DNA from: Neolentinus lepideus HHB14362 ss-1
Taxonomy: Eukaryota > Basidiomycota > Agaricomycetes > Gloeophyllales > Gloeophyllaceae
Assembly: GCA_001632425.1 (NCBI GenBank)
Contig: KV425683.1
Coordinates: forward strand, 1,159-47,569
DNA: 46,411 nt
Reading direction: 5' to 3'
Shown here in pieces: positions 1 through 46,411 of the stretch (positions are counted from its first letter, which is position 1; every line of letters begins with the position of its first letter). A program made the position numbers and the translations under genes. The notes beneath the pieces were generated by a model that was not told where the DNA came from, searched no databases, and worked only from the letters and a program-made list of their open reading frames with translations.

Positions 1-153
1 CCAGGCATGCCATGCACATGCCGTGCATGTTGGCATGTTGGCTGCTTTTGGGATGGCATGCCAGTGGATTACCCATTTGGGCGAGTGCATGATCCATATA
101 AGGAAATGGCATGGGGCAGCGAAGGGTTCGCTGCCATGTTTATAGTGTTAGGA
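1..153. repeat. dispersed 153-bp repeat, copy 1 (cut by window edge)
   Basis: Nearly identical to 45066-45218. The shared block ends sharply at 'gtgttagga' in both copies, after which they differ. It is rich in GGCATG/CATGCC steps and holds a perfect hairpin (GGCAGCGAA, 3-nt loop, TTCGCTGCC). An ORF crosses it but also occurs in the other copy as a by-product, so I do not call a gene. Bases 154-401 hold no feature I recognise apart from the 3' flank of the next gene. Confidence 0.85.
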
Positions 154-21746: not shown

Positions 21747-24700
21747 CTAGTTGGCAGGAGATACCAGGCGTCTTCTCTTGTGAGACCTCTCCTCTGCCTC
21801 CTCTTCCACAGAGCTGTGGTTTTGGTCTGACTGGGTATCTACAGGAGAGCACACTGCACCCAAGTACTCATGAGATAGATGGACCAGTCTGGAAAAGGAG
21901 TCAGGCTTACCTCTCAAAGTAAAATTCACCCTTAGGAAAAATCCCAATACTTCTATGAGCCTTTCAGGATCATCAGCCATGACTTGGAGTGTCTGGGGAG
22001 ATCTGAAAAGTGTGTAGCGGTGAAGGACAGCTGTATAGGCTTCCTTGGGGTTTGGGAGTTTTTTCACACATGCATGGACAGGATCTTTAGTCAGTCCAAG
22101 TACACCAAGGAGACATCTCCAAGCATCACCAAATTCCTGAGGGAATGCCTCACCCTCAGGAATGGCATACAGCTCTTCCTCATCCCATGCGACTGGTTCA
22201 GGGCATCGGAGAGGCATGAATTTGATAGGATATGGATTGATGTCCCGGAAAAAGCATCTGTGGATAAGCTTATTTGCTGCAGTGCCTGTAAGTATGAGGA
22301 GGTTGATTTGGAGGTATTATCACATACCATAGATCTCCCCCCAGAGGGAGAAGTGTGTCTTGAGATTATGAAGCTGGGTCTTATCTGCAAAGTCATCAGT
22401 GAATATGAGAATTATTTTTCTGGTGGTTGCAACTCACAGATGGAGTCCTTGTTCATTTGGTATGTTTTGTAGACTCCCTCCACCACCATCCATCTCAGTT
22501 GTTGAACCACAGCAGGGGGTAATTCTTCTGTCTCCACTTCAAAATACTTGTCTGTCATAGAGTCAGGAATGTGAATGTAAAACCTCAACGGTTGGCTTAC
22601 ACTTGTGTGGTCTGCGGAAGCCAGGAATTTCACCTGTTCATGGGAGGTTAGTGAAACATGAGGTGATCCATGACATAGACTCACCCATTGGCACATTCTC
22701 TCCTATAGCATAGAAGGTTGCAATGAGTTGGTGATGTCAAGATACCACTAAACTCACCAAACACAGAGGAACACAAGATCATCTGGATGTTATTTTCCAT
22801 CTGCTGAGGATCATCCCCATTCTGAGGAGACTGCACAAGAGTATCTAACAGTCCAGCAGGACATCAGTGTTATAGATTGGTAGTGTTTGTCTTGGAATCA
22901 TACCTAATGTGGAAGGCCCATCAGCAACCATGGTCTTCTCCTCTGGCTCATCAGTCTCTGTACAGACACTGAGTAAAGTGTATGTCTACAGTATCATGAT
23001 GCTCACTGGACCGTGTGCCCTGAGACAGTGCTGCAGAGAAGATTTGAATGAGAATAATATAGGGCAGCCACTATCATATTGGACTCACAGATTGCTTCCT
23101 CAGCATTAACTTCACCCTGAAGCTCCCTCTGAATATCTTTATCCATTTGATCATCATATGTCATCTCTGGATTCACTGTGTCGCATGATATTAGCAGGGA
23201 GAGGTACAACTAATGGACGAGGCCAGGACTGACCTGAAGGGTTGATTCCTAGTTCCTCCTGGATATCTGGGGTAATCAGTTTCATGGTATTGCCTTGTGA
23301 GGGTGGAGGGTCAGAGTGTGTGGGGTTTACAACCTCTTGGGACTTGGGAGCCTTCTGTCTTCTCCTCCCTCCTTTAGATGCCACTCCCTTACCCTTGTCC
23401 TTGGTGACCTGACCTTTAGTCTTAGCAGTGGACTTGGTAGCCTTCCTCCCCCCTCCAGATCCTACACTTTTGCCCTTGTCCTTGGTAATCTGATGAGGTG
23501 CTGCCTTGGCCAGGCGCTGTTTCAAAGGGATGTCCTCCTCAGTGTCACTGGACTCCATAATCTGGGGAGACTTGGGGGCTTGCTTCTCCTTATACTGAAC
23601 AGACAGTGGCATGTCCTCTTCAGAATCACTAGACTGAATGAACTCTGAAGACTTGAATTCCTTCTGCTTTCCCTTCCCACCTCTAGCCACCACACTCTCC
23701 CTTTTGCTCTTTGTGACTTGGCCAGCCCCAGACTGCATGTTCTTTGATGAAGTGGAAGAGCTCGAGTGTCTAGATGTGGAAGTTATGGAGACTGACCCTT
23801 GAGCACTGGATTTCTGATCTACAGCTGTGTGAGATGCTGAGGAGGTTCCTGTAGATGTGGAAGATGCATTAGGACCAATCGTGGTGGTCGCCTGCTTCAT
23901 CCTGGCCAGGAGATTATCATTGAATAGTTTGCGCTTTAGGTTTTGCTTGAGTGCAGGAGGTGGAGGTGGAGCAGGAACCAATATAACAGGATTCTCCTCA
24001 AGGTCCTCCTCATCCACCTTGAAGTATGCCCTCACTTGCTCATCAGTTGCAACTGGAAGGGTTGGAATGTCATTCTGGGTTCGCCACCACTTTACTTGAG
24101 ACTGGATGTCATCAGGTGGAGGTATAGTCTTGTTCCCTGTGTAGAAGATATTTTCTTTCACAAAGTAGGAAATGGCCGCCTCCAGAAGAATCCATCAGCA
24201 AATAAAATAGGTGATTAACTGGTGTATTTACTCACAGAGGTAAACCCCTCCAGTGCCAGGGCCATCTCTGGGTGCAAGGCAAGACTTCCATCTTCAGTTG
24301 GGATGCCACCAAGGCCAAGCTTGATGAACTGGGAAGAGAATGACTTGAGAGCCTTGGATTGAGAGAACTGGAGCTCCAAGCTTTCAGATATGCCAATAGC
24401 CATGTTGGAGTCCATAATAGGCTGAGTGATAATGGAATTATCCAGAAAGCCATCCCAGAAGTACCCAGACATGGATGCATCAGGATACAGTGTTCTGATA
24501 ATTGAAAACACATGTTTCCTAAGCTCCCATGCAGCACCATGCTGATAATAATATGAGAGAGCCTCATTGTGCACATACAGCAGCTTGCCCAGCTTCTCTG
24601 CTTTTGTGGTATCACGTAGACCCACTTGAGCTGCATTGGGAATGATGAGGGTGTAGACACTGTGTTCAAATGCAGGACCAATAGCATCCCAGACATCACT

Positions 24701-27367
24701 CTCCATGAGATGTTTAGCTGCATTCAGATATTTTTCTCCATGACTGGTCTTGTATTTTGCAAGGAGAGCAGCATCCCTTTCAAGATCCTCTAGCCAAGAT
24801 GGACTGTATCCCTTGTTGAACATATCCAGATCAATACCCAAGACATTGTGTCCCAGCCTGGCCCCCTTGATAAGCTCAATGGCATCAGGGATAAAGCCAG
24901 ATTCCTCGCTACCATTCCCAGCTGGCCTATACTGGTGATCAAGCCAGCTCCCAAGAGGGTGAGGAAATTTGACCCCATTGGGAGCCTGTCGCTTTATTTG
25001 AGTGCTGAACCAGGGAGCCCTTTTCATGAATACTTGGAGTTGAGTGATGAGGTTATCCCTCTCTTGGAAGAAGAGGCAGCATATCTGTACAAAGAAGTCA
25101 GAAATTCTGTGCACTATATGATCAAGGTAGAGTCACCTTTGAAAAGAATAATTGTGCTTTCTCTACACTCCAGTGGTGATGTTTGATAAGATTCTCCCAG
25201 ACCCCATCCCAGGCACCATACCACTCTCTAGCCCCTTTAGCATCCCATTGTGCATCACAGAATGGTTCTAGTTGATAGGCTTGCTGCATGATTGAAATAC
25301 AAAATATGATCACCCATTATATTTTGGTATGCCAAGGCTAGTTGGGGACTCACCATTGCCAACCATCCCTGCCCTAGAATCATCTGCTGGTCTAAATAGG
25401 ACACCCACTCACCACAAAGAAGTGGTGTGTGAGGACTAAACCAGTACTCATCCTCAAAGATGCCTCCATCTACCACCCACTGAAGTTTGTTCCACATATG
25501 ATTGAGAGTCTGCCTCCCCAGATCTGAAAGTGCTTTCCCACACTGCAGCTCCTCCTCAATAATCTCCTTGAGACTCTTGCGATATAATGTAAATGCTTCC
25601 TGGTAAACCTGGAGGCGTGTAGCTGCGACTTTGGGATGTGCATGATAGCCAGATATTACAGGATGGAGGTGATCATGGAACAGTTTCTGGGACTTGTCCA
25701 AGATAGGACCAAGGGCTTCGTACTGTGGTATGGCAGTCTGGATTATGGCCTTGGAGTCATTGAGCACTCGAGACTTGAGCTCTGAGGTCAACTTGGATGG
25801 ATCATCAGGAAAGGCTATCACATCCCTAGGATCACTGAGAAATGTGTTAAGATCCAGAAGCTCCTCTATTGCACATGCAAAGAGCTAGGGTAGAAGTGAG
25901 GATCACACTCTGCTGTTATCAAATAGTTTATCATGACTTACTGTGCCTCTAGCCTCCCGCACGCAGGCTCCCCATCCACTACAAGAGAAGAATGGACTTT
26001 GCTGTAGTGGCATCCACTGGTACAAGCGCATGAGCATTGACCTGAACTTGGGCTCCCTCAAGAGAGCATGCAGGCTCTTGTCTTCATGGCTTTTTATAAG
26101 TGATGCCACAGTGTTGTCCAGGTGGGTAGAGGTGGCACTGCCAGCTGTCTCATCCTTCTGAATGGCGATGCGAATGACATTGAGAGAGCGAATGAGGACA
26201 TCAGTTGCATCATCCTGCTCATGAGGGAGGGAGCGGTTGGAAGTCAAAGCATCTGCAAGCAAGGCTGACTGGTCATGTCGCTGGAGCTTGTCTGATAGAC
26301 AAATATGATAAATGATTACTTGTTATATTCCAGACCAGTGAAAAGGGGCTCAACACATACCCAAATCAATGATCTGCACCAACCAGGTGCTCTCTCTCTC
26401 CAGATTATCCTTGGCATCCCAGAACTGTGCTTGCAAATCTTTCCGCAAGTCATCAGTAAGCCTTGGCTTGCTGAGCCTCTTGGTAAGTGCAGCAATGGAC
26501 TTTTCATGATCCTCAATTGTCTTCCTGATAGCCTCCCTGCGATGTTGACCGGCAAGCAGATAGGCAAGACCATCTTTCTTAAGCCAAGTGAGTCTCTCAG
26601 CATCTTTGCCTTGCTGAATGTCTAATGGTACAACAGGTGAGCCATTTAAATGTAGGAGAAGAGGAAAAAAATTAAATTTACCTTGCTTAGAGACCAATGT
26701 GCTCTGGTCCAGGAGATCCTTCTTGACTGCAATAGTCATAGCATGGGCCAAGTGGTGGTTGAGAATACCATCAACTTCAAATGCATTCCACAGAGCTGTG
26801 AGTGCTTTGGGTGTGATCATGCGAGGATTGTAGGGGCTAGGCTGAATCTCAGGCCCCTCTCCACCATCATTGTTGCCAATGAGTGACAGGAGAGCATATC
26901 CTAGCGTAATCTTCTCCAGGTCTGCCTCAACAGCCTTGTGGGCATCATGAGCTTGTGCCCGAGTAGTAGCAGCCTGTGCCTAAAAATACAGAATGGGGTC
27001 ACTTATGATATTCCACCTAGACGCAGACATGACTCACAGCAATCTCTACCACAGTGGTGGGGATCTTATTCTGATATGTAACAAGGGTCAGCTATCCCAT
27101 TAAATATGAACAGATGTCACCTTCTTGCTATTCGCAGAAGGGCCCTTGGATTTGCCCCCCTATTGAGATACCAAATATAAAGAATGGTTACCCATTGTAT
27201 TTTTGGTGGAGAATGACAGCTGACCTTTTTCTAGATTAAAACATGAGGTGAGTACATGTGAGGATGTCTTGTACACTTCAGGAACTCACAGCTTGGACCA
27301 CAGGAGTGGAGGTGTTCTTTTTGTTTGTGTTTATTTGGTTCATGTCATTGTTGTTCTGTCCAGCCAT
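21747..27367 (-). CDS. large ParB/Srx-like-domain protein of a repeated unit
   Basis: Multi-exon gene starting MAGQNNNDMNQINTNKKN (exon 1, 27290-27367). Exon 26682-26979 reads NPRMITPKALTALWNAFEVD then GIL. After the 60-nt intron 26622-26681 come WLKKDGLAYLLAGQHRREAI. The order NPR, ITPxAL, GIL and GxHRxxA is that of ParB/sulfiredoxin-fold N-terminal domains (nucleotide-binding GxHR loop). The long middle (about 26.3-24.2 kb) has no recognised fold: LFACAIEELLDLNTFLSDP, QAYQLEPFCDAQWDAKGARE, WLEDLERDAALLAKYKTSHG. Next comes ISESLELQFSQSKALKSFSS, then a Ser/Lys-rich region with repeated CK2-type SSDSEEDMPL / SSDTEEDIPL and KDKGKG motifs. The C-terminal block contains VAWDEEELYAIPEGEAFP and HRYTLFRSPQTLQVMADDP and ends KRRRLVSPAN. 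I traced about 1.2 kb-residues without an unavoidable stop. Function is unknown; DNA binding or partitioning is inference. Confidence 0.72.
24200..24229. repeat. 30-bp dyad inside intron (donor side)
   Basis: On the minus strand it directly follows the donor GTGAGT: arms AAATACACC / TATTTTATTT-type. The intron of the shortened paralog carries a dyad at the same place (30783-30812). Confidence 0.7.
25295..25324. repeat. 30-bp dyad inside intron (acceptor side)
   Basis: Arms AAATACAAA / ATTATATTT with the centre TGATCA. On the minus strand it ends 11 nt before the CAG acceptor. Confidence 0.75.
26301..26330. repeat. 30-bp dyad inside intron (acceptor side)
   Basis: Arms AAATATGAT / GTTATATTC. 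On the minus strand it is followed by GTCTATCAG, the acceptor. Confidence 0.65.
26984..27013. repeat. 30-bp dyad inside intron (acceptor side)
   Basis: Arms AAATACAGA / ATGATATTC. The minus-strand end TGTATTT runs into the TTAG acceptor. Confidence 0.65.
27173..27202. repeat. 30-bp dyad inside intron (acceptor side)
   Basis: Arms AAATATAAA / ATTGTATTT. On the minus strand it is followed by GGTATCTCAATAG. Confidence 0.75.
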
Positions 27368-28988: not shown

Positions 28989-31058
28989 TCAGAGAATATC
29001 TTTCTGTAACAATAGCATGGTTGATGAGAGACTAATCCTCCACTCAATCTCTTTTGGGGTCCATAGGAGAGCCAACTGCAAGCAAAGGGATGTGAGATGA
29101 GCCCAGCAGGATGGAAATCCAAAACACTTGCCCTTCAGTGCATGATTTATCAGCAAAAAGCCTGTGAGAGTCTTGATGAGCTCTGGAATATTGTCTGCCA
29201 TGATGTCAAGTGCCTGGGGTGATCTATAAAGAGTGTAGCGGTGGAGGAGTGCAAGGTAAGGTTTGTTGGGACTAGGCAGCTTTTTGATGCATGGATACTC
29301 TTGTTCCCTGGTGACTCCAATGCTTCCAAACAGATGCTTCCAAGCCCTTGTGAACTCTGCCTCTGGCTCTTTCCCATCAGGGATATAATGGAAGTGAGTA
29401 TCATCCCATGACACAGGGACAAGGCACCTGATAGGGATGGATGCGATATCAAAGCGTTGCTGGTCCTTGAAGTATGACTTGTGAATAATGACATTAGCTG
29501 TTATGTCCATAAGTCTAAGGGGCACATAAATGACAGGAAGGCTCACCCTGATGCTCTCCCCAGAAGCAGAATTTGGGGCAGATATTAAGAAGCTGTGGCA
29601 TGCCTGTGGAGATGTGAGGGGATGTGAGTCCTATTCTTAAGCAGACAATACTTACCCAGTGGGTCAATGTCCTTTTGGTATGTCCTGTAGATAGCTTGCA
29701 CTACCATCCATCTCAACTGCCTCACCGTGGATGGTGAAGGAGATTCACCCTTAGCCTCAAATGGATTGTCTAGTGGTTGATAAGCACTGCAAAGTATTTT
29801 ATGGATTATAGGGGCTCACAGTCCTTGGGTCTGCATATTATGGCCATGTCACCTATATGAATGGAGTCAGCAGTGTAGAGTAACCAGGGCTCTTGTAGAC
29901 TTGCCAAAGGGGATGTTTTTACCTACATTGTGGCTGGTGTATGAGTAAATTAGAGACCGAGAAGCATTTGCACTGACCGAAGATCGAGGTTCTCAAAATG
30001 GCAGCAATATGGTGGTTTGCCTGTTGATCATCATTTGCATTTTGAGGCTGCTGCATAGTGAGGCCTGAAGAGATGGTGAATTGGTATAGCTGGTTATCAC
30101 ACTTGTTATTGAGCTCATACCTGATGTGATGATGCCAATAGCAGCCACATCCTCATCCACATTCAAATCCTGCTCATCTGCTTGTTGTAGGGTACCTGCG
30201 GGCTCTCTGTGAGGAAATAGTTTGCTCTCATACCATATTGCTCACCTGATTGGGTATCACCTGCAGTATTGAAGTCCTCCTGCATCGCTTTTGTCACATG
30301 TTTTCTGGAAGTATCCTGTGATATAAGAGGTATAGCAGGCTTATATGCTTCCTGTATCAGGGAATGATCCCCCTCTGCACTACTGTTCCCTACAACTTTA
30401 GGGGACTTGCATGCCTTCTTGCGAGAGGTGGATTCAGAGGTAGTAGAATCTGAGACAGGTGAGTCTGTCTTGATAGTGATGGTGGTGGTAGCCTGCTTCA
30501 GACTAGCAAGGAGATTTTCATGGATTTGCTTCCTCTTTAGGTTCTTGTGAACATCATGAGGTGGAGGTCCCAATATATCACTGTCTTCCTGAGAGCCCCT
30601 CTTGAAGTAGGCGCTGACCTGCTCAGCAGTCGCTGCTTGAAGCTGGGGTATGTTATTTTGGTCTAGCCACTGCTGGACATGATCCTGAGTAACCTCTCTA
30701 GCATGAGCAGTCTTGATACCATCATGGAGCATATTTTCCCTTATAAAATAAGACACTGTGGCCTGCAAGAGAGACCATGAGAAAATAAAACAAGGTATCA
30801 TCCATTGTATTGACTGACAGTGGTAAAATTGTTCAGGGCCTGGGCAATATCTGGATGCAAGATCACCTGGCCATCTTCTGTGGAGATCTGACCATGGCCA
30901 GTCTTTTCAAATTGGGAATAGACCACATTCAGTGCCTCTGCCTGAGATATCTGGAGAGTAGCACTCTCAGAGATGTCAATGCCTGCACTGATACTCTCAA
31001 AAGTGTGAGCCTTTGGTTTGTTTGGACTTGTTTGGTTGATCTTGATGTTGCTCCTCAT
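28989..31058 (-). pseudogene. shortened ParB-unit gene, ParB-like and middle regions deleted
   Basis: Starts MRSNIKINQTSPNKPKAHTF and goes directly to ISESATLQISQAEALNVVYS, which aligns to the full copy's ISESLELQFSQSKALKSFSS. The whole ParB-like domain and about 550 following residues are missing. It continues through an intron (GTCAGT to TTGCAG, with a dyad at its donor), SYFIRENMLHDGIKTAHARE, a Lys/Ser-rich linker, and the C-terminal block IKKLPSPNKPYLALLHRYTL then YRSPQALDIMADN. The end (EIEWRISLSSTMLLLQKDIL) differs from the full copy. The reading frame is mostly preserved, so a shorter protein may be made. I class it as pseudogene/derivative because core regions are missing. Confidence 0.65.
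30783..30812. repeat. 30-bp dyad inside intron (donor side)
   Basis: Arms AAATAAAAC / ATTGTATTG. On the minus strand it follows GTCAGT directly. Confidence 0.7.
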
Positions 31059-31259
31059 TGTATGACAGATAAGGGCTTGGCTTCAAGGATGCTGGTTTCT
31101 AAATGTGGAAGGTGATGGTTGAAAGTCAAGGGGCAAAGGAGTGAGATTCAATTAACAGTCTTATATAAAATGAGAACCAAATACAAACAAGTACAAACAT
31201 AATCATGTGATCATCTTATATAAGATACAACATAATATCTATGACATAATTGCCATCAC

Positions 31260-31410
31260 ACCTCTGGCACAGCCACAGAGAAATACAATGAATTTCCAGT
31301 TATTGTATTTGGTTGGACAATCACGCTCATTGACTGTCTTACTGGTATAAAACCAGATTGGTATGAGGTCAAGAGAGGTAATGGGTATCAGAGGGTGCAG
31401 ATAACCATGA
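31260..31410 (-). pseudogene. 3'-end remnant of the recombinase/RecQ gene
   Basis: Text LIPIWFYTSKTVNERD matches the helicase C-terminus LIWFYTSVKQSTKRL. DNA homology to 34672-34820 is clear ('ataaaaccagat', 'gggtgcagataaccatg') and includes the 30-bp dyad at 31281-31310. Homology stops near 31410. It shows that a helicase once lay upstream of the shortened ParB-unit gene. Confidence 0.75.
31281..31310. repeat. 30-bp dyad, perfect arms
   Basis: AAATACAAT / 12-nt spacer / ATTGTATTT, orthologous in position to 34672-34701. Confidence 0.8.
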
Positions 31411-31559
31411 TTTTCTGATTCAACTGAATAGAAGATGTACTGGCCCTTTCCTGATTGATCACACATGAGTCTTTCTCTGGAACTAAAGGTGCATGGACAA
31501 TGTCTCTACTGAACAGAAGGTGCACTGATCTGTTCTTGTCTGAACCCTCCTATAGGGAT

Positions 31560-32107: not shown

Positions 32108-34250
32108 CCTCCCTATTCTGCAAGTTGAATATCATTCAAACTTACACCTCTCCACACTGGCCCAACTCTAGCAGTCTGTGATCCTGAAAATACTGATGTT
32201 TCACTTGAACACACCTTTCCACCACATGAGCACTCTTATAGCAACCAGCTCAGATCAAGGGCACTACCTTCACCTGTCACCTATCAGAAAGTAGTGATTA
32301 GATTGTGCATAGCCTCTTCATTGCTAACTCATAAAGTAGCAGTGCTCTCCTCTATCTGTGTGGAAGAGACCTATCTTCCATGAATGACATGTTATGGAAG
32401 CATCCGTAAGATGTACCCGAAGACCAGTCAATGTTATGGACAGTTCAGTAGTGTGCATTACCAGATGCGAAAGGGCAGTTAACATTATGACCATAGAGGA
32501 TGTGCCATGAGGCTCAGTCCATTCCTCAACACCTCAGGAGTGCTGAGGATGTGGGTGCATTCAACAGTTGACAGGACCAGGTGGGTGTAGGAGTCATTAG
32601 TGGGAGGACATGCATAGGTACATGACGTGATAAGTCTTAGAAATGGTGTGTGGTGTGAAGGAGTGTCATTGTTGTGACAGGATAAAGGTGACTAGAACAA
32701 GGAGGACAAGTTCATCCCCTCCCTCCCCTGGTAGCTCATAATGGGACTCTGTCTCTAGTCTCCATCTGTATAACTCAGTGCCTACCTCTAAAAAGATGTC
32801 TTTTGATGTCTCTCATGCTCTAAGGCAACTTGCTCAAGTTTACTTTGACTTTTCCACAGTGAGTTGGTCTAACCAAGTCTCATCTAATTACTGCGAGTGG
32901 ATGCTGTACCTGCTTCACCTTAGTAGTGCTCATGACCTGAGTGTCCGCTGATAGGCCCCGTTGGCTTCTGACCCCAGAAAACATGATTTAGGGCGATTCT
33001 GTGCACTTCATGGGAATGGTGACTTAGCGACTCAATAGCGCACTGTTGGTACTCTGTGCACTAGTGACCCTATGCACCAGCAACAAGGCTCTCAGCTCTT
33101 TGGTGCACTTAGGATGGCTCCTCGGTAGCTTGGTCAGTCAAACATCATTCAGTCAAGTCATCAGCATTTCGGCATGCATCGCCTGGCATTGTTACTGCAG
33201 TCTGAACTGAGGCAGTGTCTCAGGGTGCCTTTCCATATGGCATACAGCCCGCCATTGTTTCAGATCAGCGCTAGTTCTATTGGTGCAACTTTCCTTATGT
33301 GTGCAGTGCGCATTGACACATGGCACGACTATGGCTATCACGACACCGCCGCACCACAGAGCGGCCCTGCCCTTTATCCCTCTTTCAGCAGGATCACTCT
33401 AGCATCGGCAGCATAGCCTGCCCACGGATCATCAAAGAGGTGCACTCTAATGCAAAGTCAAGACACGGAACAACATGCATACTAGAGTTGGTCGCATGGG
33501 GTACTGGTCGAGGAGTGCATGTGGATTAGGAGCAAGGCAGTACAAGTTGTATGGATGTGAGGCTGAGCAGAGGCACAACTCACAGTAGTAGGTAGATAGG
33601 ATCAGACATAGAGCAGTCACTCTCTTGTATTTAAGCCATTACTCTACTGTTTGTACAACAAGTTATCTTCACCACACTCTTCAGATTTCAGTCTTGCGTC
33701 AGAGTTTCTTCTAAGTCTGTCTTGCGACTCGCGTTTAGGTACTCTTGCATACCTCTGACTTCACCCAGAGATAGTGACAGAGTATGCCAGCGTAGCGTTG
33801 CTGTTTGTAAGCAATCCCTTATAAGTCCCTTTCTCTTAGACAGCCCCGTGCGCTGTAGCATAGTGCTAACCAGAGTCTATATACGTCCGAGTTAGAGATA
33901 GCGACTACAAGTAGCGCTCCCCTATAGAGCACCGAAGACCATACAGCACCAAGTAGGAGGAGCATCGTATAGCACCTACACAGCGCCGTGCACATAGCGC
34001 TACATAGTGCATAGCATCGCCTTCTATCCTCAGACTGCCGCCGAGTAGCAACTTGGCACCAACCTCCCTTTAGCCCCAACTATACGTCTCACCTACACCC
34101 ATCCCCTCTGAACTATATTACCCTTCGTTACCCCAGGCCTTGCAGCCATCTGACACCAAGGGCTTTGGTATTTGCTTTGTGGTTGTGTCTACCCTTTAGG
34201 TCTCATTTCTGCAGGTTTCATCGTGTGTCTGTGCATATCACCATGTACAT
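32108..34250. other. degraded retroelement body and unexplained stretch
   Basis: By orientation, 32108 onward should be the body of the split Copia-like element, but no protease, integrase, RT or RNase H motif is readable. 33620-34080 ('cttgtatttaagcc' then many 'agcac/agcgc' words) looks like another LTR-type sequence without clear ends. Nothing else can be supported. Confidence 0.35.
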
Positions 34251-34671: not shown

Positions 34672-34701
34672 AAATACAATGAGCTATCAGTTATTGTATT
34701 T
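34672..34701. repeat. 30-bp dyad overlapping the helicase stop codon
   Basis: AAATACAAT / ATTGTATTT, perfect 9-bp arms. On the minus strand two of the three bases of the helicase stop codon TAA fall inside the outer edge of the right arm. Confidence 0.8.
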
Positions 34702-37700
34702 AAGTGGACAGTCTTTTAGTTGACTGTTTAACTGATGTATAAAACCAGATCAGAACATTGCAGAGATTGGTAGGGTAATGGGTGTTGGAGGGTGCAGATA
34801 ACCATGTTTGAAAAGAGTCAACTGAGCTGTCTTTAACACCATGCTCTGCCAACACTGCTTGTCTCATCTCAGGCACACACATGATGTGGAAACCCAATGG
34901 CAGCATAACATTTGGGTGCTGACATGCTGCTTCTGAGCCTCTTGTAAAGGTTGGATGCAGAACATCGTCAAGCTGTGGGACATGGCATTTGAAGCAGATG
35001 GAACCATGCTTCTTTAAGTCATATTTGATGCACTTCTTCAAGGCCCTGTACTGGGGGAGGGTGAAGGGGAATCCTTGGCTCAGAATGGCTGGACAGTCTT
35101 CAATGTCATGCTTTGGATGCTCTTCTTCCTTGACCAGCCTACATAGCACACAACAGGCATTCAAGAACTCCAGGGCCTCATGAACCGCCTGTATCCTACC
35201 ACCAAACTGCATGATCCTCTCAATCTTCCTCCTCTTAGCCTCACTAGCAGCCTCATCAAATGGGGAGTCTGAGCTGTCAAGAGTTCTTTTGGTAACAGTG
35301 GCTGCAGGAGGACACACATCTTTGGTTTTGCGCTGACAGATAATGCACCACTGAGCAGACTGGTATCCTTTGCAGGTGTCTCCCTCCCCATCACAGAAGT
35401 GGGTGAGTCCTTGGCGTAGACATGTGTTCCTGGAGAGACTTTGGAGCCAGTTATACATTGCCAGTTGACCTTTGTGATCTGTCCCTGTCACAGAGGGTGC
35501 AGGTGTGTTGTATGTTGTATGAGGCAGGACCAATGAGATGGCTGGCATGCCATCACGTCCACCACGACCACTTTCTTGCAGAAAGCTGATCATTTCGCGA
35601 GGAGATCCAGCATGGATGACCATACGGACATGTTTGTAGTCATTGCCAGCACCAAAAGCCTGAGTGCACACCATGACCTTGCTTGCACCACTCAGCCACC
35701 TCTTGTGCATTTGTTGTCGCTCCTGGTTGGTGAGGGTTGCTTGGTAAAATTCATAGCCCAGTTTTTTTGCCAATGCTTCACCCTGGGTTTTAAAGGGCAC
35801 AAAGATGAGCACCCTATCTGGTTCTTGTAAATCTGGGCCATAGATTTCTAGGACCTCCTTGACATAATCATGGATTTCAGGCATGCGACGGGGGTTCTCA
35901 AGAACATACTGGATTTCAGGGCGCACAGTGGATGTCCGGATGACAATGGTGTTATTAGGCATAAGTCCAAATGCATTTATGAGTGATGGCTGGGAAGCAG
36001 GGCTGACAGTGGCAGATAGTGCAACCAACTGCATTGAGAACTGCCTGAGCTCATAGGAATTCCGCAAAGCTGGCCTGTAGTCACTGGAGATGATAGCCTC
36101 ATGTGCTTCATCATAGACCATTCGGACCACCTTTCTACGCTCATGTAGCTCTGCAAGAGCTTGTGTCCATGATGCCATTTGTGCACGATCAGCTGACACC
36201 AGAACTAGGTTCTTTTGACCAGACAGATGGGTGCTTTCTGCTGAAAATACTTCATATGGAACCCTCATATCCCTGAGCCTGAGCTCATAATCGTCCATGA
36301 GTGATTGAAGCGGTATGACTCCCACTGTGACTGCATCTTCAAGCAGGGTGGGGATGATCATGAGCATTGACTTGCCAGAGCCAGTAGCCATAACTGTGAG
36401 AACATCATTTTTCAGGTTGAGGACTGCAGAAAGTGCATCCTTTTGACCAGAAGAAGTCCATGTGGCCTCTGGTTTTCCAAGGAGAGTACGCAGACATTGC
36501 AATGCTTGCTGGAGAGTAGGTGACATGGAAGCATTGGAGAGTTCTGGAAGGATTGTTTTTCCTTTCGCAGATGCGCCTGCATGTGTTACAGCCATTCTGT
36601 TGAAGGGTGTGGGATGGGCTGATGTGGATGTGAACCAAACAGGATTAAGTGAGGTAGCAGGTATTGAAGAGGCTGGTTTCACTAGTCTCTGCAGTGATGA
36701 TATGTTCTGGGGTGGTGCCTGCAAGTGTTCCAACTGAATGTTTAATATAAAAGTAGATGACATATTGTATTCATGACTCACAATACTTGTTATATGGGGT
36801 GAACCAGCCGAGGCAGTAGAGGATGGCTTCATGGAAAACATACCAAAATGGAAAGGTGCAGTGGTGGTTGGCAAGGGTCCCTAGTAATGAGGGTAAACAT
36901 TGCACTATGTTGCGTAACTAGCAATACTTACTGAAATCCTAGGTGACACATTAGATTCGAGCACCTCCTGGGACTGACTGGATGGCACAGAAGAGATGGA
37001 AACAGCTGTGGAGGTTGGTCCAGTGTTGCATGTGGGAAGGCACAATGTGGAAGAGGACTGATAAATTACATGAATGAGATACAATAGATAATCATCCACT
37101 GTATTTTTACTCACCTGACAAGATAATTCACTCTCAGCAAGATGGGTGTGAGGAGCCATATTCTGATTCAGCAATGGGGTAAGAACTTGAACCAGTTCCT
37201 GGAGCACTTCAGGTACTGGAGTGATCTTGGAGATGGCTGGTGGTGCATACTTGGAAAAATCACAAGATCTTGCTTTGTGATAGGGCAAGACCACACCACC
37301 TGGAACCACTTTACAGGTGTTGTGCCATCGTGTGCTGGCATCCAGGAATAGTGGAATGAGATCTTCAGGCATGCTGGCAAGTGCAAATTGGCTGAGTCCA
37401 TAGATCCTATTCTCAGTGTCTGCATTATGTCCTGCCTGCAGGACATCTGCACTCTCCTGTATCTCCTCCTGTAGGAGATCAAACATCTCTTTGCAGTGCT
37501 TCCTTTTCCAGCTTGTGCTAACATGCCTCCAAGGATTGATGCCAAGCTGGATACCAAGGACTGGAAGAGAGAAGTCCCCCATGATGCTGGTGAGAATGTG
37601 GGATTCAAATGCCTTGCAATTGTTAACAAAGAGATGTTCTGCATATAGCTTCTTGATATCCACCCTGTCAGGATAAAGGATGTGCACAAGGAAAGCTGCA

Positions 37701-39998
37701 AAGGGTCACACAATAGCCAGGTTTTGAATCATCAGATCAGCAGTAAAGGCATCCAGAGCATGTGGCAGGAGCCTGTCACTGCCAGTTAGTCCACCTGTCT
37801 TGTGATACAGTGTGACAATGGAAATGTATGGTCCAAATGCCAAAAGGTTCCGTGCCGCTCGTGTCTTGGTATTTTTAAAAGTCATTGATGTGATCTCGGT
37901 TCCACGTGCAGGAGCACCACTGAGCATTTCACAGCGAGCCATAAGTATGCCCTCAAAGGTGGCATATTTTGCCAGCCATCCCCGCATAGTATCTCTATTC
38001 CACTCCCAGCCTTGACCATAATTGATTTTGAATAGGAAGCAGTCTCTTGTCTTAGCATTGTCCATAACTGCATGGAGGAGGATTTCTGTATCTGCAAAGA
38101 CAGGATTTCTTTGATCACTCAAAAAAGAGTAGCCCACATCAGTGTTGACCAGGTCATCAACAACATCCTTCCAATCTAGGCTGGGAATAGGCAAGCCACA
38201 AAGGACATCCTGCTGCCATGTCTGTATAGCTGCATCCTCTGTCCTTGAAAAGATGCTCTGGAGATCCTCTTGGGTAATCTTGGTACCTCTGTACAGCATA
38301 GAAGTATAATCAATACGGTCTGTCCAATAGACCCTTGGCTGTGATGTGGTCTTCAAGGCAATGGCAGCAGCCCTATGCTGCAAGGACCGCAATGTGTTGA
38401 AAGGTGATTGGACCTTCTCTGTAAACCAACAGGATAGTGCCTTACAACCCAGGTCATCATCTCCATGATATAGCTCCTCAGCAACTGTCTTGATTCGTGT
38501 GAGGAAAAAGAGACGCATGCAGTACTCAAGCCTGGCAATGATAGGTGTGACATCCCTAGCATCTGCATGTCCACCATCAGGCCTAAGGGTAGATAGGGCA
38601 AGGAGGCGGACAGTGGGACAAGGAATATGATTTCTCTCAGAGGGCAGCCACTTGATCATCCAGATGTGGCCAAGTACTGCATCCAAGGCAACCAGTCCAT
38701 CTTTATCCTCTGCAGGATTGCTCAACCAGGTAGCCAGTGTTTGGAGTGCCTGACCCAGTGCAATAGGTATTGGGACCTGATATTTATCCTTGGGTCGCAG
38801 GAGAAATGCAAGTAATCGGATGACAGGAGAGATGTACTGTCTGAGGGTGCTATTTTGTTGCATCTTGTGAAATGGTGTGTTATTGATGCCACTAGAGCAT
38901 GATGTCAATTGAAAATGGAATAGACGACCTTGTAGTATAGTTGACTCACGTCTTGGCAGGGTCTGGGGTGTTTAGAACTTGGAGAACAAGTTCATCAGTA
39001 TGGTTGATAAGGTTGGTGGCCCTCTCCATGTATGCCAGAACCAGATGAGGTAAATCAGGATATTCATCTTTTCTTGGTGTGGAGATAAGATGGCAAAGCT
39101 CGCTGATGTTATATCCTTGGACATGCTCATGCCATCTGGTTGTCAACAGCCAAGGGCTTACCATTCTGGCATTGATATCTCTATCTTCAGCCACCTCTGT
39201 TCCTGCCATCTCCATCTGGGCAGTAGTGATCATTTGCTCCCAGGGTGTATCTGGTGATGAAATGGGCTTTTCCACCTTGCAGTAGATACTGCTTGACCCA
39301 GCACCAGTAGTGAGCCTTTGTGCCTTGCATGCAGTGAACTGGAGTGGAGGTGGCAAATCAGGGTGGATATCACTGTAGTGTTGTAGCATTGACTTCCGGT
39401 TCAGCCTGATCTTGGAACACTGATTGCATAGAAAGCCATCATGCACTTTGAGTCCTTGGATTTCTTGGACAACCAAGCCATCAGTTATCCTGGGTAGAGA
39501 CTGTTCAACTTCCAGCTCATCCAAAACATCAAGCAGCATGTCTTCATCTAGATATTTGGCAAGTGCTGCATGGTTGGCGTGGATATGACCAGGAATATGG
39601 TCTCGTACAATAGCAACCATACAAGTCTTGCAGCAGACTGCATGGATGGAGCTATTCACAACAAGGTCCAAGGAGTCCAGAAAGGGGTGAGTGATGATTT
39701 GCTATCAAAAGACTGAGTTCAGGTGACAATGATTTATAATATAAGCTTACATTATCATCTACCACCTTTTTAAAGCCAACAGAGGATGATTCCAAGATTT
39801 CAGAAGCAGCTGGGTGATTGTCCTTCCTGTGCTGTAAATACAAAAGATGATCCCCTATTATATTCTTCAGACTATAACCTTCTAATGGGTACTTACACCA
39901 CATGACTTTTGATGATGGTCTCTTGCCCCCCTGGTTGAGAATAACTCTCGACAGAATTTGCATCTGGATGGTGCAGTATTTCTATTGGCAGTTGCCAT
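34700..39998 (-). CDS. zinc finger / tyrosine recombinase-like / RecQ helicase fusion, one in-frame TGA
   Basis: Seven exons: 39897-39998, 39751-39831, 38950-39701, 37115-38891, 36932-37057, 36782-36880, 34700-36733. All joins keep frame, giving 1657 codons with stop. Residues 1-34 hold CKFCRELFSTRGARDHHQKSC. Two further C2H2-like fingers follow (CCKTCMVAIVRDHIPGHIHANH and FLCNQCSKIRLNRKSMLQHY, given as separate pieces). Residues about 630-815 look like a tyrosine recombinase: R641 in GAPARGTE, K676 in YHKTG, R767-H768 in NPWRH, H800 in QAGHN, Y809 in ENRIYGLS; the first box-II His is Asn. RecQ helicase: ATGSGKS 1095-1101, DEAH 1187-1190, LSAT, QESGRGGRDG 1365-1374, a Cys zinc site (THFCDGEGDTC..WCIIC) and a further Cys/His tail. 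Codon 707 is TGA where relatives have Arg (xRPFAAFL). Telomere-linked RecQ genes are the nearest known parallel; mobility is inference. Confidence 0.87.
36743..36772. repeat. 30-bp dyad inside intron (donor side)
   Basis: In intron 36734-36781. On the minus strand it follows GTGAGTCAT; arms GAATACAAT / TTTATATTA. Confidence 0.65.
37077..37106. repeat. 30-bp dyad inside intron (donor side)
   Basis: In intron 37058-37114. On the minus strand it follows GTGAGTAA; arms AAATACAGT / ATTGTATCT. Confidence 0.75.
39836..39865. repeat. 30-bp dyad inside intron (acceptor side)
   Basis: In intron 39832-39896. On the minus strand it ends in TTTGTATTT, which runs into the ACAG acceptor. Confidence 0.75.
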
Positions 39999-41340
39999 AG
40001 CAACCAAGATTACCAGTGAATAGGCTGTCAAATAGGTAAATGGTTGTAGGGAGGAAAGAAGGGGTGGGAAAATTCACTGGCCATCCCCCCCTTATATACA
40101 TATCAGTGAGGACTTTGAATCTGAGTTTAAATTTTCTAGTGCAGCCACATCAGGTCTAGACCCTTCCTAATTATAGTGTGGGCTCGTAGAGAGGTTAAAG
40201 TTTACTTGACACAAATAGAATACCTGGCCAATAACAAAGATCCTGGAAGATATATGTCATATTATATTTGGTTATAAAGTGGCTAATGTGGAACTGGATA
40301 TTGCTTCCTAAAGTCCATAAAGTGTTTTGAACAGAGAGTAATGAATGTAAAAATATAAGGTTAAATTGCTACAATATGTAACTATGATGCTCAGCCCCTA
40401 TTGGGGGGTCCTAGTCCTACCACAGTTCAGCACAGCATGCTTCTGGTGTCTTTTGCCATTTAAAGGTCAGCTTCAGTTCACAGTGATGACTCTAAGTCTT
40501 GGTCTGTGATCAGCTTAGCATAGTTCAGGCAGCAGCCCCTTGCCTGATTTGGACAGGTGAGTTGTGCTGGCATAATGGAAACTTGTCAGTAGGTCAGTGA
40601 AGGCTGGGGGGTCATTAGCTAAGTAAATACATACTAATATCATGTTTAGTCTGTTGTATAAAAGTGTTTGAGCATTATATTGGATTTTATAAGCTGGAGC
40701 TCCCTTACACGGGTGCTTGCATACAGGTTTGTCGTTGTGGGAATTTAGGTTCAAGTGATCTGATTGGTTGATGGCTCTAGCTATAATAAGATTTGTAGTT
40801 GACTACAATATTATGTAACTGGAAAGGAAGTCAGGGTCATGGCTTGGACAGGTTTGGAACTGGTCTTTGATGGTTAATTAGATCTGATGGACTGGTCTGA
40901 GCCATCAGCCATTCATCCAACACTCTGGCACAAATCACAGTCCTGTGCTGTGTCATGGTCACACTATGTGGTTCATCCTGTGTATATACTGTTCATAATT
41001 GGATTATATAACATTGTGCATCCAAATCCATATGCCTCAATTCCATATCTCCTCAAGTTTTGACTCTATCAAAAATCAATCTGCTGCTTGCTGAAACAAG
41101 CATGTGCACCAGAAAAATTACAGTTTGGGGATTTTTTTGTCATGTTACATAATTGTCATACAAAAGTGATGACTAAGTGCCAAAACCCACACATGGATGC
41201 TCATCAGTCAGTGTATCAGTCAAACTTTTCAATAGCACCTCATCATGATACTCAACAGAGGTGGACTCAACACTTAATAGTTAGTTTTTGCCATAAAGCA
41301 ATACAAGTTGTATCACACTTGATCATGCACTAAATATAGA
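39999..41340. other. 5' flank of the fusion gene and AT-rich DNA, no supported gene
   Basis: CTTATATAC at about 40092-40100 could be the TATA region, some 95 bp upstream of the start at 39998. The rest holds short ORFs only. Confidence 0.4.
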
Positions 41341-41344
41341 AGAC

Positions 41345-42650
41345 AACAGCTTATAATAGTCATAGCTAGATGCATAAACTCATCCATCACTTGTACTAGC
41401 TTGTATACCATGAGACACCTTGTATAGACTGTGGACGAGGTCGCATCTATAGCACATAGTTGGGAGTTTCTCTGCCCAGAAACATCTGGTAAGTGTGGGA
41501 ATTACTTTCCATATCTGGATGACCCTTGCCTTGACTATACGTTAGTTCAGTTTGTGACCTGAACACACACAACTTGGGATGTCCTAGTGAAGCTTCTGAT
41601 ATCATGACAATGACTTTAGTGCAACAACGTGGCCAGGAGGGTCCACGACAGGGGCCTCAACCACAACATTGTTGAGGAGCTCTCACCATCTCATGGAGCA
41701 TGATGGTAGCAGCAGAGCATGGCTTTAAGGAATGATGGGAGTGTGGAGGAAATATGACAAGTCATGACTTGTTCTATTCTCCCTTTTCCCATTGACACAA
41801 GATGGCCCACAACAACCACCTCAGAGATGACCTTATCCAGGCTCTCTCTGGGAATGTGGTGGTGGGGGCTGTATGCTCTTTTTCCTCATGAATATGACAG
41901 ACAATTGCCTCTTGCATTTCCGGTACAATGGTGGTTGTGATGTCCCGAGTGAAGGTCTACTGTGGTGGTCTGGCCTCAAATATAACCGATGATCCCTTAT
42001 CGTATTTGGTTAATATAGAATCCAATGCCTTTGTCTACACCCATGAAGCCTCGTTCTCCACCAGAAGGTCCGTATGGACTCCTCTGAAATCCAACTACCA
42101 TCAGCCTCTGCACAGCACTGGGATTCTCAACAAAGGACTGCCTTTGTATATGACCTACTCCTGGCTGACAAGATGTGGTACTTGGGACAGTGGGAGCACC
42201 AAGAAAGGAGAACTGGATCTCAGAATGAGGGAAGAGGCTCTGTGGGATGAAACAAGCCAGTCACATCAGGAGACCTAGAGCCTGGCTGGATGTGGAAAGG
42301 ACATGGCTAGTCTGGCTGTGAGCCCTGCTCAAAGGCTTATACCTACAGGAAGTGGGTCTGACACCTCTTCTCTGTGGCATTGTTATCTTTTGGAGTGATC
42401 CATGGTCTCACTGTCACATCTGTGTTACATTTCGGAATACCAGTGCTCCACATGTTGGCCGTACCACCGATTCGAGTATAGAGATGGTGGGAGTCCTTAT
42501 TACTGATGCTGAGGGAGTTGCAGAAGTATTGGCAGGTGAAGAGCAGTGGATTCGATGGAGGTCGAGATGGGTCTGTGACAGCAGCCTCAAAGAGGATGTT
42601 ATTGAGTCCCAGTCACTACTGATGTGGTGGTACTGAGGAGGAGAAGATTG
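41345..42650 (+). repeat. duplicated block D1 (homologous to D2)
   Basis: Matches 44510-44570 plus 45320-46350: shared words 'cccagaaacatctgg', 'gggaattactttcc' and 'ttatccaggc', and the 'cttttggagtgatccatggtc' region near 42390 / 46210 (the last is 21 bases with variants in between). D1 has a dyad at 41978-42007. ORFs inside have no recognised domain. Similarity resumes at 42925-42980 with 46360-46411. Confidence 0.75.
41978..42007. repeat. 30-bp dyad in D1
   Basis: Arms AAATATAAC / ATCGTATTT; equivalent position to 45844-45873 in D2. Confidence 0.65.
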
Positions 42651-43079
42651 CATCAGCAGTTGCGTTTGATGTGAAGAGGAACCCCAAGGCAGCCTCTGCA
42701 GAACCCATCCTCTGGGTCAAGGACTCCCGGCTTGTGCACATGTGCTCTGGGGAGCATGTTCAGTGGTTGATGCAGGCATGGATTCGAGAGCAGGCTGGGG
42801 TGCAGCAATGACCTGTGGCAGATGATGACGGTGTGCTGGAAGAGTCTGGAATCCATCGGTATCTGTGATGGTCTGGCAAATATCGGTCATGGCCCATGGG
42901 AAAGCCGGTAGTATTTGGAGGCTGCAGTTGAGGCAAAGGCACCAGCGAGATGTGAGGCCGAGTTGCAACTGATGTGTATGGCCTTATAGACAGATGGAAA
43001 TGTCCCCCCACAAAGTCAGAACACGATGGGTTGTTGACTCACCTCTTGAGAGACAAGCGTGGACCGGTTCCTTTCCCTG

Positions 43080-43500
43080 TCTTATTGGAACTTAGTTGCA
43101 GCATTCATTCCAGGGTGTGACCACCCGACTCAAGTGAATCGCCCATGAATTGACTTGAGCAGGGGGATGCGAAGCCATGCACACTCGGCCAGGGGGTGCT
43201 GGTGGACAAGCTCTGCTTGGATCCTTTCCATGCATTATCCATAGCATCCCTTTCAGGGTGTTACAAGGAATCCTGAGTGAATCACCTGTGAATTGACTTT
43301 GGCCGGTGGATGCCAAGCTTGATGCAGTGAATGGGAGAGCACAGTGGCCACTGAGGGACAAGCATGGATTGGATCCCATCTTAGGGTGGTCACGGTGACT
43401 ATTCCAAGGCCTGGGAGCAAAGCCACAGTAAATAACCTGTGATTTGACTGTGCCATGCCAAGTCAGAAAGCCAGGCCTCTGGGCAATGTGGTGCTAGAGG
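43080..43500. repeat. three diverged tandem units of about 150-170 bp
   Basis: Each unit has 'agggtg', 'gtgaatcgcc/cacctg', 'tgaattgactt' or 'tgatttgactg', and a '(a)ccaag' tail: about 43090-43240, 43250-43400 and 43380-43500. Non-coding. Confidence 0.55.
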
Positions 43501-44145
43501 GCCAAGCACTCACTGGACAAGGTGCAGGCTTGAGTCCACCTGGATCACAGCATGTGACTCAGTGGGTATGGTCAATATCAATGTCTAGCAGTGGCTGTTG
43601 GAGGCTGGTGTGATTGGGTGGAAATGCGGTGAGGATCCGTGGGAGTCTGGGAGGGATGGCTGTTGTGGCTTTGCAGCGTATCCATGGTTGATGAGGGTGT
43701 GTGATAACCAAATCTGAAATTGTCCCTAATGTCATCGGGCAGCTGCTCACACTCAAAGTCCAAAGCCAGACATCGAAATGAACCACTTCATATAATAGAA
43801 CTGTACCCACACCTGTCCACCTGTCCAGTTTCATCTGTCAGACACTTGGCTGCCAAGGGACAAGCACTCACTGGATAAGGTGCGGGCATGAATCAATGTT
43901 GATCATGGCACGTTATTCAATGGGTACCTTAAATATCAATGTCTGGCAGTTGCTGTTGGAGGCTGGCAGGATTGGGTGGAAATGCCATGCGGATTGGGAG
44001 GGGTCTGGCTGTGGTGGCTGTGCAATGTATGCCGTGTTGGTGAGGGTTTGTGATAATGGGATCTGGAGTTGTCCCCAAAGCCATTGGGCTGCTGCTCACA
44101 CTCAAAGTCAAAAGCCAGATATTGAAATGAACGGCTTTATATAAT
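43499..44145. repeat. tandem duplication of about 300 bp, offset about 358 bp
   Basis: 43501-43805 and 43859-44145 share 'caagcactcactgga', 'aatatcaatgtct', 'gctgttggaggctgg', 'ttgggtggaaatgc' and 'ctgctcacactcaaagtc'. The unit head (GGTGCTAGAGGGC then GGCTTGAGTCC) resembles Pol III A and B boxes, so a tRNA-SINE ancestry is possible. Non-coding. Confidence 0.6.
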
Positions 44146-44706
44146 CATTGGAATTCTACTTTGTAAATTCATCTTTCATAGTCAAGGTTACATGTACGAC
44201 TGTGCACACATGTGCTCATACCCATTTTTGTTGCTTTCTGCTTATCATTTTGACATGTCCTGTCATTTTGAGCTACGCACTGTCGCGGCTCCTTTCCGTT
44301 GTACCCAAACAATATCGTACTTATACCGTAGCATAGCTATCTTGTACAGCATCGTGTTTGCAAAGGGACACCCCTGTTTTACTCTTGTACTCATCCTGGC
44401 CAAGTGCACCCATTTTTGCTCACGAAAATCTCACAATAATACCACTGTACCCACACTTGTCCAGTGCTGTTTGGCTGAATAGCACAAGGAGACATACCCA
44501 ATGCATCATGCGAGATCAGGCACTGCATACCAAAGGAAACAGCTCATAATATTCATAGCTGGACTCTGGTGAGTATCATACCAAGACAGATATATGGTAT
44601 GAGGCTAGATCTAGTACTGAACATAGAAGCAAGCCGCTGATGAAGGATGGATTCTGCATGAGATGGGTGGCAATGTATTACATGGCATGAGAATGTATCC
44701 AGCATC

Positions 44707-44736
44707 TGATACGAGAAGGTCTAACTCATTGTATTC
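44707..44736. repeat. possible degenerate 30-bp dyad
   Basis: Left arm TGATACGAG (5 of 9 consensus positions), 12-nt spacer, right arm ATTGTATTC. Confidence 0.35.
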
Positions 44737-44759
44737 TTGGGTAGTTTTGGATGAGTTGC

Positions 44760-45060
44760 TGGGCATGGCATGATGCGAGCAGCATCCAAGATGGCATGGC
44801 ATGGCATGATTCTGATGGCATGTTGATGGCATGGCATGATACCAGCGGCATGTAGTATGGCATGATGGCATGGCATGGCATGGCATGATGGCATGGGTAT
44901 TCATGAGAAAAGGAAAGAATGGCATGATTGGCATGATGCGAATGGCATGTTGATGGCATGGCATGATACCAGCGGCATGTAGTATGGCATGATGGCATGG
45001 CATGGCATGGCATGACGGCATGAAGTGCATGCAAGAATGGCATGGAATACGCAAAGTCGG
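44760..45060. repeat. GGCATG satellite with an 80-bp repeated unit
   Basis: Runs of GGCATG. The block 'ggcatgttgatggcatgg' ... 'ataccagcggcatgtagtat' occurs at about 44817-44895 and again at about 44943-45020, nearly identical. On the minus strand this gives an artefactual Met/Pro/Cys/His-rich ORF. Confidence 0.85.
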
Positions 45061-45065
45061 TCATG

Positions 45066-45218
45066 CCAGGCATGCCATGCACATGCCGTGCATGTTGGCA
45101 TGTTGGCTGCTTTTGGAATGGCATGCCGGTGGATTACCCATTTGGGCGAGTGCATGATCCATATAAGGAAATGGCATGGGGCAGCGAAGGGTTCGCTGCC
45201 GTGTTTATAGTGTTAGGA
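45066..45218. repeat. dispersed 153-bp repeat, copy 2
   Basis: Near-identical to 1-153, with the same hairpin. It lies directly after the GGCATG satellite. Confidence 0.85.
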
Positions 45219-45750
45219 TCCCAATGTTGTCATTGCAGAACTCTACTGTCTGCACAGCCAAAAGCTCTACGTCACTGGACTTAGCACCAGTCCATCATCC
45301 ACAAGCACATGTCCATCCCATACACTTGTCCATTGCTTGTACTAGCTCATGTACCGCTGGACAGACCGCTGATGAGGTAGCATTGGTAGCATGTGGTTTC
45401 TCTTCCCAGAAACATCTGGAGAGCGTGGGAATTACTTTCCATATCTGGATGATCCTTGCCTTGACTCTACATTAGCTCGGTTGGTGACCCACTTTTCCAA
45501 TGCATGCAACTCGGAAGGAAATACGATCAGTCATGACTTGTTCTATTCTCTCTTTTCTCGCAGATACAAGAAACAACTGCCTCAAAGATGACATTATCCA
45601 GGCCCTCTCTGGGAATGTTGTGGTGGGTGCAAGTCTGGATGACCATTTCAAGGAGCATGACAGTGGTGGTTAGGCACAGGTTTATGCAAGGTTATATATA
45701 CAGAGTCACGACAGTGTGGGTCATGACTTTTCGGATGCTCCCTTTCCTCA

Positions 45751-45780
45751 AAATACAACACATGATCACCACTTGTATTT
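45751..45780. repeat. 30-bp dyad in D2
   Basis: Arms AAATACAAC / CTTGTATTT around a TGATCA centre. The corresponding D1 site (about 41890-41920) is nearly unrecognisable. Confidence 0.75.
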
Positions 45781-45843
45781 GCGGTACTATTGTGGCTGCA
45801 ACATTAGTAAGGGTCTAGTGTGGTGGTCAGAATCTCTGGCCTC

Positions 45844-45873
45844 AAATACGATGGAACATTCCTGATTATATTT
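45844..45873. repeat. 30-bp dyad in D2
   Basis: Arms AAATACGAT / ATTATATTT. Confidence 0.65.
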
Positions 45874-46411
45874 GATTGACATGGAATCCGATGCCTGCCT
45901 GTGCCTATGAAGCATCCAGTATAGAGCCCTTTCACATCTTGGCCTCCGCACTGCACTGGGATTCTCAACCCATTCCAGGCTGACGAGATGGGGTACATGG
46001 GACACTGTGAGCACCAGGAAAGGAGAACTGGATCTCATAATTAGAGAAGAGGCTCTACGGGGTGAAACAAGCTAGTCACATCTGGAGACCTGCTATGCTC
46101 GAGAGCCTGGCTGGATACATTGCAGTGGCTGGACCTGGCTGTGAGCTCTACTCAAAGGCTTATACCTACAGGGAGTGTGGTCTGACACCTCTTCTCTGCA
46201 GCATTGTCATCTTTTGGAGTGATCCATGGTCCACATTGGCTGTACCACAGATGCGAGTATACAGACTGTGGGAGTCCTTGTTACTGACACTGAGAGAGTT
46301 GTGGATTTGATGGAGGACCAGAGGGGTCAGTGATAGCAGCCTCGAGGAGGATGTCATTGAGGCTGCAGTTGAGTCAAAGGCACCACCGAAATGCAAGGCC
46401 AAGTCCCAACC

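Follow-up and report, generated by a model that had tools for sequence, protein, structure and literature searches.

RecQ-family helicase genes linked to telomeres are present in several fungi, among them tlh in fission yeast, UTASa in Ustilago and MoTLH in Magnaporthe. These genes lie in subtelomeric repeats, encode a long N-terminal extension and occur in several near-identical copies at different chromosome ends; to our knowledge, the reason why RecQ helicase genes adjoin telomeres in several fungi is still an open question. Here we analyzed a stretch of 46,411 nucleotides from Neolentinus lepideus HHB14362 ss-1 (assembly GCA_001632425.1, contig KV425683.1, positions 1,159 to 47,569; hereafter the window), which carries on its minus strand a seven-exon gene joining Cys2His2-like fingers and an OrsD domain to a RecQ-family helicase. 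Like the genes mentioned above, this one sits in subtelomeric repeats and has a long N-terminal extension, whereas the assembly contains a single copy of it. We read it, with a probability of about 0.6, as a subtelomeric RecQ helicase gene of the telomere-linked kind, present once in this assembly.

A first-pass annotation of the same DNA had proposed that a tyrosine-recombinase-like catalytic core lies between the fingers and the helicase, which also brings Starship captains and Cryptons into the comparison. Starship captains are linked to DUF3435 (PF11917), and the proposal resembles them in that a large recombinase would drive an element, but exon 4, where the core would lie, has no PF11917 match, and the one match to this family in the genome is below threshold and on another contig. 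The abstract of Kojima and Jurka (2011, PMC3212892) describes DUF3504 genes derived from Cryptons as being without most of the tetrad and, in many cases, as carrying extra DNA-binding domains; the words helicase and RecQ do not occur in the article's main text. A residue set of the R-H-R-Y type, as in Cryptons, can also be read in the gene studied here, although the latter has no profile match.

Gene structure and domains

The gene was rebuilt from its splice sites and comprises the following features:

34700-39998, minus strand: seven-exon gene, 1656 codons when read through one TGA (spliced translation and open frames)
39998-39897, 39831-39751, 39701-38950, 38891-37115, 37057-36932, 36880-36782 and 36733-34700, minus strand: exons 1 to 7 (spliced translation)
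39897-39962, minus strand: first Cys2His2-like finger, residues 13-34 (pattern)
39363-39656, minus strand: OrsD domain, residues about 77-174, containing the second and third finger patterns (Pfam PF12013 and patterns)
37706-37708, minus strand: in-frame TGA, codon 707 (open frames and spliced translation)
35288-36451, minus strand: RecQ-family helicase, residues about 1074-1461 (TIGR00614, PDB helicases and motifs)
35336-35422, minus strand: C-terminal Cys cluster, residues 1417-1445 (pattern)

All six introns are of the GT-AG type, measure 48-65 nt and have a GTRAG donor (GTAAGT, GTAAGC, GTGAGT, GTGAGT, GTAAGT and GTGAGT for introns 1-6), and the frame stays open through introns 4 and 6 when these are retained. 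The seven exons joined without phase conflict and the 1656-residue frame of the first-pass annotation were thus reproduced, but the TGA at codon 707 had been missed. Exon 4 consists of two abutting open frames, 37706-38971 and 36905-37705, which meet at this TGA, and no further in-frame stop was found among the 1656 codons. If the stop is neither skipped nor read through, a truncated protein would be the sole product of the present allele.

Three Cys2His2-like patterns start at residues 13, 85 and 153, and exon 3 matches OrsD (PF12013) with an E value of 2.7e-8 and 34.7 bits, above the cut-off of 26.6, which places the gene in the OrsD family; here the domain is fused to a RecQ helicase. The last exon matches TIGR00614 with an E value of 1.3e-43, although its 149.5 bits are below the curated cut-off of that model (219.8). 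The best of 105 matched PDB sequences was 1oyw ("ATP-dependent DNA helicase", E 1.5e-24), which we take to be E. coli RecQ, and the matches include helicases named RecQ, Q1, BLM and WRN. The helicase motifs ATGSGKS, DEAH, SAT and QESGRGGRDG are all present, and a core with such RecQ-type motifs indicates, at the level of sequence, membership of the RecQ family; the Cys cluster presumably corresponds to the zinc-binding tails of RecQ proteins. The fingers, the RecQ helicase with its zinc tail and their union within a single gene frame, all of them proposed in the first-pass annotation, are therefore borne out, and since the OrsD, finger and RecQ matches fall in the joined frame, the union of fingers and helicase is real as far as the sequence can tell.

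Subtelomeric location and copy number

The window covers nearly the whole of its 47,569-base contig (C131 in our numbering of contigs), the first 1158 bases of which are read as N. The repeats and relics that surround the gene are:

1-153, plus strand: telomere-adjacent repeat at the left end of the readable contig, 98% identical to 45066-45218
41466-46404, plus strand: subtelomeric direct repeats (unit about 3.8 kb), comprising a complete copy and a second one that the contig end truncates
33585-34240, plus strand: 3' flank of the gene, which recurs at C108:4276-4932 (88%)
30895-31413, minus strand: relic of the 3' end of a second copy, consisting of the 3' flank and about the last 36 codons (76% DNA identity)

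The telomere-adjacent repeat flanks the gene on both sides (1-153 and 45066-45218, the latter within the direct repeats), as is to be expected of a subtelomeric location. Positions 89-153 match C134:57-121, where the repeat comes immediately after (CCCTAA)n; the assembly has no other four-unit telomere match. The direct repeats start about 1.5 kb beyond the 5' end of the gene, and 42463-45217 is shared in pieces with C108. Matches of positions 40000-46411 were counted by hand, and the counts are lower bounds: besides the full self match, at least 23 reach the end of the telomere-adjacent repeat, at least 6 on the minus and at least 17 on the plus strand. All of the minus-strand matches lie no more than 350 bases from the right end of their contig, while 15 of the plus-strand ones start within 10.2 kb of the contig start and the remaining two, both on C108, lie at 12.9 and 19.7 kb. 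The position of these repeats near contig ends, the (CCCTAA)n junction on C134 and the shared 3' flank together locate the gene in subtelomeric DNA, and these surroundings strengthen the parallel to telomere-linked helicases that had been drawn beforehand.

Two further repeats are found in this region. A dispersed repeat of about 480 bp (40430-40913) lies just upstream of the gene and has copies on C9, C23, C107, C18, C50, C46 and C3, with partial ones on C13 and C11, and a GGCATG-rich minisatellite (44788-45022) lies beside the telomere-adjacent repeat.

Regarding copy number, no second exon 4, OrsD domain or close copy of the helicase was found in the 33.8-Mb assembly, and the genome has one OrsD match; such counts are lower bounds, and chromosome ends assemble badly. 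Instead of several near-identical copies at different chromosome ends there is one copy plus the 3'-end relic, 3.3 kb away from it, and the several genomic copies expected of Crypton or Starship elements are likewise missing. With the same caution about chromosome ends, the single occurrence of exon 4, OrsD and helicase argues against a multicopy transposon. Around the gene no outstanding repeat pair marks element ends, a direct repeat of a few bases being indistinguishable from chance.

CpG decay and purifying selection

The gene is embedded in DNA that has lost most of its CpG:

7700-46411, no strand: CpG-depleted stretch reaching the contig end, observed/expected mostly below 0.5 and often 0.1-0.2

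The CpG observed/expected ratio is about 1.0 in the ordinary left 7.5 kb and then drops sharply from about 7.7 kb, with an excess of TpG and CpA. The ratio was 0.66-1.13 in 14 other loci of the genome, recombinase loci included, and a part of C108 near the repeats is equally decayed (0.15-0.31 in several 1-kb steps). Within the gene, the loss depends on codon phase. The ratio is 0.49 at codon positions 1-2, the phase of arginine codons (32 observed, 66 expected), and 0.05 (5/93) and 0.07 (8/120) in phases 2 and 3 (13/213 in all; Fisher p 7.7e-12 for the contrast), and nine CGA codons have been retained. The contrast is significant by itself in residues 312-599 (p 4.6e-5), in the helicase (p 2.5e-6) and in residues 600-850 (6 versus 2 sites, p 1.3e-3). 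Among nine control frames of the genome, eight showed none, and in one recombinase locus, L012, it was mild (odds ratio 2.6, p 6.5e-4); elsewhere in the CpG-poor stretch, seven of eight frames gave the same sign with small numbers, the exception being 30166-30906. CpG has therefore been lost mainly at sites that are cheap for the protein, which indicates that the frame was under purifying selection for a long time while CpG was disappearing. A large subtelomeric frame that was selected while the surrounding CpG was nearly erased is a strong sign of past use, either to the fungus or to the gene itself.

A telomere-linked helicase of this kind could work as follows. Judging from the families to which they belong, the N-terminal fingers and the OrsD domain would probably bind repeats of chromosome ends, and the C-terminal RecQ motor would unwind DNA there. 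Such unwinding could promote recombination between subtelomeric arrays and thereby help chromosome ends, as well as the gene itself, to be maintained or to spread. The middle part would probably be a very diverged, perhaps noncatalytic, domain of the tyrosine-recombinase type or another DNA-binding domain.

Several observations weigh against a telomere-linked gene. No telomere repeat array was found within the window, and the orientation of the repeats implies that the telomere would lie to the left, 34 kb away from the gene. Of the contigs that carry the repeat on the plus strand, six (C115, C28, C125, C122, C26 and C111) were counted without their lengths. At several other contig ends bearing the repeats, CpG is not depleted or much less so (0.64-1.06), so that CpG decay does not accompany every chromosome end. 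Furthermore, the phase contrast is not significant in residues 1-311, in residues 708-850 or in the linker 851-979 when each is taken alone, and the selection signature says nothing about present use of the gene.

The in-frame stop

The alternatives to a telomere-linked helicase gene are partly compatible with it, so the confidence placed in each need not sum to one. The one that survives best, which we consider possible if somewhat doubtful, is that a once useful telomere-linked gene has been killed by the TGA and is now a pseudogene within decaying DNA. The in-frame TGA, the surrounding CpG desert and the truncated second copy close by are what such a history would leave behind; nevertheless, there is only one stop in 1656 codons, and the nine CGA codons together with the other arginine CpGs have been retained. 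Because the frame was kept through the CpG loss, the stop is probably young compared with that loss.

It is unlikely, though a lone stop in an otherwise open long frame invites the idea, that the TGA is a sequencing or assembly error or is removed by unusual splicing, which would leave the gene intact. Seven phase-consistent GT-AG pairs could splice the TGA out, but none of the seven has the GTRAG donor that is found in all six accepted introns.

The middle part and the tyrosine recombinase question

The proposed catalytic core lies in exon 4:

37400-37906, minus strand: putative recombinase-like stretch R641...K676...R767...H800...Y809 (residue positions and motif pattern)

If, as in Cryptons or Starship captains, its middle part were a working tyrosine recombinase, here aided by the helicase of the same protein, the gene would belong to an active or recent mobile element. 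In favor of this, R641, K676, R767, H800 and Y809 are all found in the spliced translation in that order and at those positions, and H800 and Y809 have the H-x8-Y spacing of XerD. The proposed box II has N instead of H in HxxR, and the TGA at codon 707 falls between K676 and R767. A motif pattern matched 2 of 200,000 shuffles and 20 of 41 recombinases, but it was written with the sequence in view and is thus post hoc.

Searches with exon 4 read through the stop returned no family match in Pfam or PHROGs (E up to 10) or in NCBIfam (E up to 1), and PF00589 did not match at the gene. Among PDB sequences the single match was the unrelated 2gbo (E 2.2 and 0.81). With residues 500-903, tblastn gave one match in plasmids, in a glycosyl hydrolase at E 10, and none in phages; no relatives were found in the viral contigs scanned, where four matches look like chance. 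Single-sequence searches of this kind are weak even for genuine recombinases, which lessens the weight of these results: the true recombinases of this genome score below the PF00589 cut-off, one of them (L011) detects Cre in the PDB with an E value no better than 0.11, and another (L012) gives nothing but chance matches in phages.

For a more direct comparison, 41 recombinases were aligned, 35 of them from E. coli, phages lambda and P1 and other bacteria (some pairs being near-identical) and six from the studied genome (L008, L010-L013 and L015, the near copies L009 and L014 being omitted). Of the 30 bacterial loci considered, L130 was left out as too short (84 aa). The alignment shows clean R, K, HxxR, H/W and Y columns. 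Scores that were not tuned to the sequence did not raise exon 4 above shuffles. In hmmsearch with three recombinase profiles, 285, 105 and 46 of 2000 shuffles reached its score, and unrelated frames of the window outscored it with each profile. In hhalign, residues 560-830 scored 12.9, 11.2 and 19.6, against 26.3, 24.8 and 24.6 for the best of 200 shuffles. In a test with long motif blocks, its score was reached by 3134 of 5000 shuffles and by 41 of 116 real frames. Short blocks, a second try, gave 313 of 5000 shuffles and 1 of 91 E. coli frames when all 41 rows were used, with the best placement elsewhere, and 944 of 5000 shuffles and 7 of 91 E. coli frames with the bacterial rows.

The best placement of the bacterial short blocks coincided with the proposed residues, box I falling on R641, R-x-L-P after K676, box II on R767 and the last block on H800..Y809; nevertheless, all 35 recombinases outscored exon 4 when each was left out in turn (lowest 36.6 versus 18.9). 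With all rows or with the bacterial ones, the H..Y block ranks 1 and box I ranks 2 of 577 windows. In contrast, box II ranks only 17 and 22 of 577 and the K676-anchored block 32 and 12 of 580 (all and bacterial rows, respectively), and the six fungal rows put the four blocks only at ranks 31 to 368. AlphaFold run without relatives gave a low mean pLDDT in two runs on the middle part (34.5 and 33.7), which speaks neither for nor against a recombinase fold. Stretches similar to "RH" and "QAGHS...Y" occur in mushroom proteins, which we take as a lead and not as a test.

Of the proposed catalytic core, then, the five residues stand where they had been placed, but the profile tests do not rise above shuffles and no family matches; detectable profile similarity to the catalytic domain was not found in tests of low power, and a recombinase identity of the middle part is a possible lead that is unproven. 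The first-pass suggestion of machinery for a mobile element is weakened further by the single copy in the assembly and by the stop in the present copy, and we hold a mobile element to be quite unlikely.

More speculative still, and in our opinion improbable, is an element of chromosome ends in which one enzyme would find subtelomeric repeats with its fingers, open them with RecQ and cut and join them with a diverged tyrosine recombinase, spreading site-specifically between ends. If true, a recombinase module fused to a telomere-linked RecQ helicase would provide a direct and testable mechanism for the telomere-adjacent location of such genes.

Other features of the genome and the window

The genome contains other tyrosine recombinases, L008-L015, with CpG ratios of 0.66-1.13. 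L008-L011 follow frames that we read as reverse-transcriptase/RNase-H-like and are presumably of the Ngaro/DIRS type, and L012-L015 form a second type. As relatives of exon 4 all eight were rejected, a protein search with exon 4 having found only itself.

Elsewhere in the window, a large gene on the minus strand is present as two diverged copies in tandem (21747-26979 and 28989-30986). Pfam gave no match at 0.1 for four of its open frames and sub-threshold matches only for another; one exon was not found a second time in the genome, and one contains a LAGQHRREAI stretch that we take to be ParB-like. Lastly, a fungal Zn2Cys6 cluster domain is encoded at 2739-3242 (PF00172, E 3.5e-7).

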